From the NCBI GenBank assembly GCA_024635855.1, contig JAGXHZ010000093.1, positions 1 to 18,895 of the forward strand: a stretch of 18,895 nt of DNA, in the 5' to 3' direction. This DNA comes from Sulfuricurvum sp. GTDB lineage: Bacteria; Campylobacterota; Campylobacteria; Campylobacterales; Sulfurimonadaceae. Under the pieces are notes generated by a model, which was not told where the DNA came from, did not search any database, and was given only the letters and a program-made list of their open reading frames with translations. Shown one piece after another: positions 1 through 2,186 of this stretch (its first letter is position 1; each line of letters starts with the position of its first letter). A program made the translations under genes and the position numbers.

Positions 1-55
1 CAAGCAAACGGCGAATGGAGGGATCATCATCTATAATTAGAATATAGGGTGTCAT
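1..55 (-). CDS. Response regulator, N-terminal fragment cut by the window edge
   Basis: The reverse strand reads ATG at 55-53 and then MTPYILIIDDDPSIRRLL before the window ends. This is the usual start of a CheY-like receiver domain: a hydrophobic first strand followed by the acidic Asp-Asp-Asp pocket and a Ser-Ile-Arg-Arg-Leu-Leu first helix, as in KdpE and OmpR-type regulators. Its ATG overlaps the TGA of the antiporter-kinase gene (ATGA on the minus strand), so the two are probably translationally coupled and form a cognate two-component pair. The output domain lies outside the window, so the regulator class cannot be stated. Confidence 0.8.
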   Translation of the reverse strand, partial: MTPYILIIDDDPSIRRLL

Positions 56-2115
56 GATTCGCCGCGTAGTGTTACCCGAACACAAAAATAGTCATTTTCC
101 ATTTCTATCATCATGTTTCCACCATGTGCTTCGATGATAGTTTGAGAAAGCCGCAAGCCAATCCCCGACCCCGGTTTGCCTTGGGCATTATCCAACCGAC
201 CTGAGATAGTACCAAGTGTGCTAATCGTGTCGGTCGAGGGAAGATCTCCGTTATTACAAATAACCAAATAGAGTTCATTGTATGCGGATGACAGCTCGAC
301 GCTCACATCGTCTCCGTATTTAAATGCATTGTCTAACAGATTGCCGATGGCTAATTGAAGTAGAATAAAATCTGCCATAATAGGTGGAAACTCAGCGCTA
401 AAGGAGAGTTTGGCTTGCCTATGCCAGTCGTCTTCAGCTACAGATAATGCGGACGAAACGACCTCTTCCAATCGTCCCATCGTCATATTCAGAGGTGTTT
501 TCCCTTCACGAAAGCGTGCGTGGAGGAGTAGATTGTCGATTACCTTTTCCATACGGCGGGAACCTTCGACGATAGTTTGAATCATCTCTTCTTTATCGCT
601 TGCTTCAAGGATAAATTTTCGGTTTGCAAGATTTGTAGCAGCACCTCGAATGAGTGTTAGAGGGGTCCGAAGCTCATGCGATAGAAGATCAATCAAACTT
701 TTCTGCATCGTTTCGACTACCTTGTTTTCTTTAAACCCTTTCGTTATCAGATTGAGTATCGGTCCGGTCATAAAGGTGGTGACTAATGCCATGATGACAA
801 ACATTGTAAAGAGTTCCGCAGAGAGAATCCCCATGTCATAGCCGATATTTAATACGACCAATTCCATTAATCCTCGCGTGTTCATCAGTATTCCCAACGC
901 GAAGGAATCGCGCCAATTAAAGCCCATAAATTTTGCCGCCAATGAACTTCCTAATAATTTTCCGCTGACGGCAACAATAATAATGAGTCCGCATACAAGC
1001 CATCCATCACTTGTATTGAGCAGTCCAATCTCCGTCCGAAGTCCCGTAAGGGCGAAAAAGAGAGGGAGTAATACGAGAAGGCTAACATATTCCAAGCGAG
1101 GAGCAATTAGCTCTTTGAGACGGGAAGTTGCTGAGGATGGCATCATGGCCCCCGCCATAAAAGCACCGAAGAGGGCGTGAATACCGATCGATTCGGTGAC
1201 CAGTGAAGAGACGAGGAGTAAAACCACAATGGCCGACATGGCGTTCATACTGAGTTTTTCGTTCTGAGTACTCCCAATTTTTGCGAGAAGGGGGCGAATA
1301 CCATAGAACATAATGGCAACATACATCGCGATAAAGAGCAATAAAAACAAGGATGACCCAAGCGTTCCTGAAATGGAGAGGGCAATAATCAGAGCAAGGA
1401 TATACCATGCGGTGATATCATCCGTTGCGGCGCAGGTAATCGCCATTGCACCGTAACTGGTATTGGTGAGATTTTTCTCTTTGATGATTCGGGCGAGGAC
1501 GGGGAATGCAGTAATACTCATGGCAATACCGATAAAGAGGGCAAAGGGCATGAATGAGACATTGTGCGGAGCAAACAGCGGATAGAGCCAGTAGGACAAG
1601 ACTACCCCCAGAAAGAAAGGGAAGACAATACTGGCATGGCTAATGAATACCGATGCGCTTGATTGTTTTTTGATTTTTTCGAAATCCAGCTCCATGCCGA
1701 CGACGAACATAAAAAATATTAGACCGAGCTGACTGATGAGACTGAGATTACTCAATGACTCTTTGGGGAATAAAAGAATAGAAAACTCAGGGAAAAATAA
1801 CCCTAACAAAGATGGGCCAAGGATGATCCCTGCGATAATTTCTCCCACAACGGTCGGCTGGGCGACAAAGGAGACTAAAAAACCGAAAAGACGGGTGGCC
1901 ACCATAATCACAACAATTTGAATCAGCAAAAGAGCTAAAGGGTGGTGTAATTGTTTCAGGAAATTTTCGATCAAACCTGAACTTAGTGTTGTATGAGGCA
2001 TAGCGGTATACAAGAGAGTAGCACTTTCTAGGGCGCTTCCTTCATGAAGGACATAGGCGATTCCGCTACCGAAGAAAACGATAATGGCGATATATAAAAG
2101 GAGTGTGTTTTTCAT
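52..2115 (-). CDS. Na+(K+)/H+ antiporter (CPA2) fused to a histidine kinase
   Basis: A 687-residue fusion. Residues 1-30 are a first membrane segment. About 58-460 form a cation/proton antiporter of the CPA2 type (GEIIAGIILGPSLLG at 91-105, the ion-site pair Asp232-Asp233 in ATDDITAW, and MNTRGLMELVVLNIG at 411-425, resembling the KHA1/CHX branch). Directly after the last membrane helix, with no HAMP or PAS linker, comes a kinase: H-box SHELRTPL with His480, N-box NLLDNAFKYGD at 592-602, and G-box GSGIGL at 649-654. The first ATP-lid box is unusual, reading CNNGDLP (620-626) where DNGxGI is typical, so the usual Asp appears as Asn. The kinase would sit in the cytoplasm. Its TGA overlaps the start of a response regulator. 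The simplest reading is that ion transport, or occupancy of the antiporter, gates the kinase, as is proposed for transporter-kinase fusions such as CbrA; that is inference. No convincing Shine-Dalgarno precedes the ATG at 2115, and no clear promoter is seen in the 71-nt gap to pgpA. Confidence 0.9.
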   Translation of the reverse strand: MKNTLLLYIAIIVFFGSGIAYVLHEGSALESATLLYTAMPHTTLSSGLIENFLKQLHHPLALLLIQIVVIMVATRLFGFLVSFVAQPTVVGEIIAGIILGPSLLGLFFPEFSILLFPKESLSNLSLISQLGLIFFMFVVGMELDFEKIKKQSSASVFISHASIVFPFFLGVVLSYWLYPLFAPHNVSFMPFALFIGIAMSITAFPVLARIIKEKNLTNTSYGAMAITCAATDDITAWYILALIIALSISGTLGSSLFLLLFIAMYVAIMFYGIRPLLAKIGSTQNEKLSMNAMSAIVVLLLVSSLVTESIGIHALFGAFMAGAMMPSSATSRLKELIAPRLEYVSLLVLLPLFFALTGLRTEIGLLNTSDGWLVCGLIIIVAVSGKLLGSSLAAKFMGFNWRDSFALGILMNTRGLMELVVLNIGYDMGILSAELFTMFVIMALVTTFMTGPILNLITKGFKENKVVETMQKSLIDLLSHELRTPLTLIRGAATNLANRKFILEASDKEEMIQTIVEGSRRMEKVIDNLLLHARFREGKTPLNMTMGRLEEVVSSALSVAEDDWHRQAKLSFSAEFPPIMADFILLQLAIGNLLDNAFKYGDDVSVELSSAYNELYLVICNNGDLPSTDTISTLGTISGRLDNAQGKPGSGIGLRLSQTIIEAHGGNMMIEMENDYFCVRVTLRGES

Positions 2116-2186
2116 GCCGGAAGTGTAGCGCAGATCGTCTCAGGAAAGTATCAAGATGTAAATGAGTTATCTTTTAAGAAGTCTTA

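Follow-up and report, generated by a model that had tools for sequence, protein, structure and literature searches.

An 18,895-nucleotide window, the whole of the stretch analysed, from contig JAGXHZ010000093.1 of the Sulfuricurvum sp. assembly GCA_024635855.1 contains a gene that joins a cation/proton antiporter of the CPA2 type directly to a histidine kinase. It is followed by the start of a response regulator gene and preceded by a box also present before potassium transport genes of related genomes. The features of the locus are:

52..2115, minus strand: antiporter-kinase fusion gene, 687 amino acids (from the open reading frame (ORF), Pfam and relatives)
742..2115, minus strand: CPA2 antiporter part, residues 1-458, with ion site D232, D233 and K386
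55..738, minus strand: KdpD-like DHp and ATP-binding part, residues 460-687 (from Pfam, chain 6lgq, nearest relatives and tree)
1..55, minus strand: start of a KdpE-like response regulator gene (from the sequence and full-length relatives)
2137..2155, minus strand: KdpE-type box CTTGATACTTTCCTGAGAC, two half-sites 11 bp apart (matrix from kup sites only)
2122..2127, minus strand: TACACT, a likely -10 element, separated from the box by 9 nt and from the ATG by 6 nt (in 12 of 13 upstream regions)

The fusion ORF is uninterrupted, and Pfam assigns to its product a Na_H_Exchanger domain (residues 75-457, E 9.8e-57), a HisKA domain (473-537, 2.3e-12) and a HATPase_c domain (583-683, 1e-9), with no other Pfam domain between antiporter and kinase and no match to HAMP or PAS at E 0.001. 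A preliminary description of this DNA had recognised a complete CPA2 antiporter running into a kinase without a HAMP or PAS linker, and both statements hold, as do the positions that it gave for D232-D233 and H480. The motif residues of the kinase part are H480, N592 and N596 (N-box), Asn621 (G1 box) and G649, G651 and G653, the G2 box starting at G649. As also described there, the fusion stop codon (54-52) overlaps the regulator ATG (55-53); the overlap reads ATGA and recurs in all 12 readable cases, that of the window itself and those of 11 relatives for which the 3′-end can be read. The window includes about 18 codons of the regulator, and the remainder lies beyond its end.

Among the best 120 of 7,995 clusters, 63 are near-full-length fusions with all three domains, 679-691 amino acids in length and 67-92% identical, some bearing the names of Sulfuricurvum, Sulfurimonas or Campylobacterales metagenome-assembled genomes (MAGs). 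The census, made by genome searches in which the family and phylum counts are samples of larger groups, located the fusion in 12 of 151 genomes from the family of the Sulfuricurvum MAG L002, with no internal stop and in two (G105 and G111) cut by contig ends, and in 11 of the 41 genomes of one Sulfuricurvum-like genus, that of L002. In a phylum sample of 298 genomes, the fusion occurs in one, that of L002, and a stand-alone relative at 60-63% identity in 9. A pattern scan of contigs returned the fusion at 2 of 80 loci; the patterns are common to the whole antiporter group and so were not used for the census. The fusion is not an assembly error, because the 63 listed clusters and 12 of the 151 family genomes carry it, and no frameshift or stop of the kind considered in the preliminary description interrupts the antiporter-kinase junction. 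Homologues in separate genes had also been considered there: none was seen in the genus at E 1e-60, whereas stand-alone antiporters do occur in more distant Campylobacterota. Two close relatives among the listed 120, P0065 and P0070, have the antiporter only, and both look truncated, since P0065 breaks off within the antiporter and P0070 ends in about 19 unrelated residues.

Trees built from selected rows gather 17 fusions into a single group by their antiporter parts (100/99) and 15 fusions by their kinase parts (100/99), and a single origin of the fusion is therefore the simplest reading of these groupings. Independent origins were sought with the junction (residues 395-540), a search that could reveal only close relatives of this antiporter, and no second origin emerged; the matches listed were 68 fusion rows of at least 214 bits, then 52 rows of at most 108 bits without a kinase domain. 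In the window gene (52-2115), P0018 (from G117) and P0011, the antiporter and kinase parts give discordant pictures. The antiporter tree places P0018 with the window, the kinase tree apart from it, and the proportion of nonsynonymous differences (pN) between the window and G117 is 0.043 for the antiporter and 0.24 for the kinase, which suggests recombination near the antiporter-kinase junction. Other relatives of the antiporter, about 700-760 amino acids long and including P0111 and P0115, have a C-terminal part of about 300 amino acids; that of P0111 has no Pfam match and would be another accessory domain on this antiporter type.

A search with residues 460-687 listed the 68 fusion rows and then 52 others, of which the best five are KdpD-type and 25 carry KdpD or DUF4118 domains, and the nearest solved chain to the kinase part is KdpD 6lgq. 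When 73 kinase domains are placed on a tree (15 fusions, 13 short KdpDs linked to kup, 7 weaker short KdpDs, 3 full-length KdpDs of the genus, 23 outside KdpDs and 12 other kinases, with two near-copy KdpDs and 15 other kinases, 17 rows in all, left out), the fusions and the kup-linked short KdpDs form one clade (100/99). These short kinases are a close set found in 13 of the 41 genus genomes (matches of at least 55% identity), and the one tested by Pfam is DUF4118-HisKA-HATPase_c. By Pfam, the fusion lacks the KdpD (PF02702), Usp and DUF4118 domains, and only Na_H_Exchanger precedes the kinase. The HisKA-HATPase_c core is thus closest to KdpD, the N-terminal and membrane domains are not those of KdpD and, given the absence of PF02702, Usp and DUF4118, we class the kinase by its sequence as KdpD-like and not as KdpD.

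Residues H480, N592, N596 and G649/651/653 are invariant in 64 of 64 fusions. So is Asn621, which occupies a G1-box position that usually has Asp, a change that the preliminary description had regarded as an added oddity. The same Asn is present in all 13 kup-linked short KdpDs, in 7 of 7 weaker short KdpDs, in the three full-length KdpDs examined from the genus and in certain KdpDs from outside it, for example P0122, P0123 and P0133. As the other KdpD kinases of the genus share it, the change is a lineage feature and not an oddity.

The next gene 3′ of the fusion is the same regulator in all 11 loci of relatives with a readable 3′-end. In these relatives it has a receiver and a Trans_reg_C domain. 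The window holds the regulator start only, and for the L001 and L002 relatives that were tested, KdpE is the best NCBIfam model with 227.2 and 219.7 bits, the next scoring 187.5 and 190.5. The helix ETHYLRVFINQLRQKIE, which we take from knowledge of the family to be the recognition helix, is identical in 22 of 23 fusion- and kup-linked regulators; three KdpEs differ from it at three places. The coupling of fusion to regulator in the preliminary description stands, whereas the kinship to KdpD and KdpE and the KdpE-type box escaped it, as they lie outside the window or need comparison.

The box was defined by a 19-bp matrix built from the best sites before 16 kup genes only (consensus CTTTATACTTTCTTTATAC), and with this matrix each of the 13 fusion genes examined has a box upstream at one constant distance, its end 22 nt from the ATG. 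Over 1,168,684 positions of the loci retrieved, with overlaps between some loci and double counting of some sites, 60 sites score at least 11. Every one of the 34 highest-scoring sites (down to 16.1) precedes kup, the fusion, kdpA, or one of two small genes described below (an ORF of the 141-amino-acid type and an Lcl_C gene); 24 sites, that of the window among them, reach at least the score of the window's box (19.6 or more), and those below the top 34 are chance-like, some being inside genes. Across the 12 whole fusion genomes, the pattern TTKATAYTTTCYTKAKRY matches exactly at 12 sites, of which 7 precede kup and 5 the fusion. With one mismatch there are 45, of which 26 are before K+-linked genes and 19 elsewhere; the reversed control gives 22, which places those 19 at chance level, and at ten of them, inspected by eye from ORF starts, no K+ transport gene was recognised behind the box.

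E. coli KdpE binds two half-sites, TTTATA and TTTACA, with a 5-bp spacer (PMC3264566). The half-sites before the fusion are TTGATA-CTTTC-CTGAGA and variants, and those before kup TTTATA-CTTTC-TTTATA; as read from these motifs, the design of the box is the same as that of the E. coli site given there. TACACT, present in 12 of 13 fusion upstream regions, is likely the -10 element of the fusion promoter, and no ribosome-binding site is evident in these regions, those compared being 2116-2155 (minus strand) of the window and 12 related ones. If TACACT, 6 nt before the ATG, does serve as the -10 element, transcription would start at about the ATG and the fusion mRNA may be leaderless.

The short KdpD is preceded by kup in all 13 neighbourhoods examined, three of which have a small gene separating the two; in 12 of them a KdpE-like regulator comes after the short KdpD, and the thirteenth is truncated at a contig end. 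Canonical KdpD is found in six genus genomes, and in each of the three that also have the fusion, the fusion is clustered with kdp. The gene order is kdpA-B-C-D-E, a 141-amino-acid ORF, kup, an Lcl_C gene, kup, fusion and regulator in L109 (G001); pgpA, kdpA-E, the 141-amino-acid ORF, fusion and regulator in L105 and L169 (G073); and kdp genes, a small ORF, Lcl_C, kup and the cut fusion in L141 (G105). In G047 and G111, pgpA is followed by kup, short KdpD, regulator and fusion. The fusion lies directly after pgpA in G109, G053, G119 and the window, whereas a GGDEF gene separates the two in G002; kup-short KdpD-regulator occupies this position after pgpA in G059, G069 and G016, and in G144, G093 and G117 the fusion is at other locations. 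Judged from gene order, the place after pgpA is an exchangeable slot for K+ modules. The slot, between pgpA and a conserved oxidoreductase cluster (about 2116-2186 in the window), differs in content between genomes, holding fusion-regulator, kup-short KdpD-regulator, kdp-fusion, or both modules.

Two small genes recur in these neighbourhoods. A membrane-like ORF of 131-141 amino acids follows kdpE (L109 11747-12172, L105 12513-12938, L141 4144-4539), with its own box in L105 and L141 and no Pfam family for the copy from L001, and an Lcl_C gene (PF07603) lies beside kup (L109 14107-14526, L141 3597-4016, L146, L149 and L152), that of L141 also having its own box. Stand-alone antiporters of Campylobacterota were considered as members of the same circuit and rejected: in seven of the nine neighbourhoods, those examined by BLAST, no kup, kdp or short-KdpD-like gene is nearby and no box scoring at least 11 lies directly before the antiporter. 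The other genes of the window are ordinary and comprise pgpA, an ATP-sulfurylase-like gene, a receiver-domain gene, ispDF, thiC, an Mrp/ApbC-like gene, two GGDEF genes, a SIS/amidotransferase gene, glnD, a YceI-like gene and mqnE.

The antiporter part retains a NapA-type D-D-K ion site that, like His480, is invariant in all 64 fusions, which answers the question of conservation raised in the preliminary description; it is equally invariant in 28 of 28 antiporters without a kinase. R360 was considered as the basic residue of the site and rejected, since the alignment pairs K386 with K305 of NapA. The antiporter part has the Na_H_Exchanger domain, NhaA fold and D-D site of CPA2 antiporters, and its score with the CPA2 model TIGR00932 is 145.1 bits, below its cut-off of 238.3. 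KefC differs in having a Q-D motif and an RCK domain (PMC11150392); the fusion has D-D, not Q-D, in 64 of 64 cases, no RCK domain by Pfam, and a kinase, and so stands outside the Kef group (KefB/KefC). The ratio of nonsynonymous to synonymous differences (pN/pS) in the antiporter part is low, with a median of 0.133 over 45 pairs, estimated without G119, which is out of register through an indel. An AlphaFold2 model (42 sequences, mean predicted local distance difference test (pLDDT) score 74.6) has a single helix, 433-497, from the last transmembrane (TM) segment into DHp, with pLDDT below 50 at residues 460-466, in keeping with the direct TM-to-DHp join described from the letters. An additional N-terminal helix, 2-29, distinguishes the fusion model from NapA and KefC. 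The core domain of NapA-type exchangers undergoes an elevator movement, and TM13 of KefC is part of the core (PMC11150392).

The fusion and its conservation, the kinship of kinase and regulator, the conserved ion site, the linkage to kup or kdp in some genomes and the shared box lead us to consider it probable that the locus encodes a Kdp-type two-component system in which a NapA-fold CPA2 antiporter replaces the sensing half of a KdpD-like kinase. The KdpD/KdpE kinship and the KdpE-type box common to kup and kdpA indicate potassium homeostasis, and an ion pump thus probably reports directly to the potassium control circuit of the cell. Ion identity, the sign of the response, coupling through the helix and regulator binding at the box are the parts that we infer. 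Protons would compete with a monovalent cation (Na+ or K+) for binding at the ion site, the elevator core would move, and, with the last core helix continuing into DHp helix 1, occupancy or position of the core (or the transport cycle) would shift this helix and hence the balance of kinase and phosphatase activity. By analogy with Ks-Amt5 (PMC5764959), the antiporter might drive the kinase as the Amt module does there. Acting at the box in front of the fusion gene and, in genomes that have them, of kup and kdpFABC, the KdpE-like regulator would match K+ import to cation state; in G002, G053 and G109 the system may form a closed loop of its own. The Na+-like site and the K+ regulon could be reconciled if a Na+ signal raised K+ import.

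Several observations weigh against this proposal. The NCBIfam model KdpD is only narrowly the best for the kinase (77.9 bits, against 77.3 for CreC and 75.9 for PhoR) and all three scores are far under their own cut-offs; the clade of fusions and short KdpDs lies beside, not inside, the other KdpDs (split 86/87; midpoint root); and the regulators score below the KdpE cut-off of 325, as does the KdpE of the genus itself (212.1). No kup and no canonical KdpD is seen in three of the fusion genomes (G002, G053 and G109), and co-occurrence among the genus genomes (11 with and 30 without the fusion, which may be incomplete) is not significant for kup (7/11 versus 9/30, p 0.074), KdpD (3/11 versus 3/30, p 0.32) or either (8/11 versus 12/30, p 0.085) and was not used as support. 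The pattern TTKATAYTTTCYTKAKRY was written after the sites had been seen, and the junction is the least certain stretch of the AlphaFold2 model.

How far the antiporter still transports separates two further readings. We tentatively entertain, as somewhat short of an even chance, a working elevator antiporter geared to the kinase, which would be pump, sensor and signal source of a Na+/K+ homeostat in one, its transport cycle, read through the continuous TM13-DHp helix, driving a Kdp-type regulon and its own gene. A slightly smaller but still serious possibility is that the antiporter part binds the cation and signals without transporting any longer, as reported for the Amt part of Ks-Amt5; every antiporter feature used here would persist in such a sensor too. 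The ion-site residues are nevertheless as invariant as in kinase-less antiporters (64/64 versus 28/28) and the pN/pS of the antiporter part is low, points that lean towards transport and that a sensor could also display.

A Na+ or pH stress system unrelated to potassium, with kup and kdp nearby as shared cargo of the exchangeable slot, seems unlikely. It draws on the D-D-K site with a non-polar fourth motif position, which fits Na+-type electrogenic exchangers by the rules of PMC6181914. The fusion and kup-short KdpD do fill the same slot after pgpA in different genomes, and the co-occurrence statistics are weak. Against it, the box is common to kup and kdpA and nearly absent elsewhere and the recognition helices are the same, while a Na+ signal raising K+ import fits both readings. 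We regard as slightly less likely again a protein that is kinase-weak or phosphatase-only owing to the G1-box Asn, for, despite Asn621 in every fusion where Asp is common, the remaining boxes are intact and the same Asn is in all KdpD-type kinases of the genus examined and some elsewhere. Reverse control, in which the kinase part would regulate the antiporter as RCK does in KefC and the regulator would be secondary, is the least probable; C-terminal cytosolic regulatory domains are usual in the transporter superfamily (KefC RCK, PMC11150392), but His480 and the ATP-site motifs are invariant in 64/64 fusions, and all 12 readable cases (12/12) show translational coupling to a KdpE-like regulator that has a shared box.

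The proposed Kdp-type system resembles KdpD/KdpE in kinase and regulator kinship, operator design and, in three genomes, kdp linkage, and differs in having a CPA2 antiporter in place of the KdpD (PF02702), Usp and DUF4118 domains. With the kup-linked short KdpD it has in common a sister kinase clade, a sister regulator with the same recognition helix, the same box and sometimes the same slot; there, however, the membrane part is DUF4118, not a transporter, and kup is a separate gene. Ks-Amt5 likewise uses a transporter fold as the sensor of a histidine kinase, in that case an ammonium transporter with the Amt fold (PMC5764959), which has no sequence family in common with the antiporter part. 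CbrA and other SLC5/STAC kinases also place a secondary transporter before a kinase, in the SLC5 fold with STAC and PAS between (PMC7918813); Pfam finds no SSF, STAC or PAS domain in the fusion, which therefore falls outside that group. The preliminary description knew of no characterised CPA2 version, and among the matches listed in the open-access literature we likewise found no description of a CPA2 antiporter-kinase fusion. Transporter-kinase fusions are already known (CbrA, Ks-Amt5); the proposed sensor-swapped Kdp-type system with an antiporter is new here.

The stimulus of KdpD is described as contentious, with turgor, internal K+, external K+ and transport all named (PMC3938482). In the fusion, the place of the sensor is taken by a protein with relatives in which the ion site and its motion have been studied well, and the regulator and operator design appear to have been kept. 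Whether ion occupancy or transport drives a KdpD-like kinase would therefore be directly testable with known ion-site mutants, and the fusion would provide a compact model for the coupling between an elevator transporter and a kinase.
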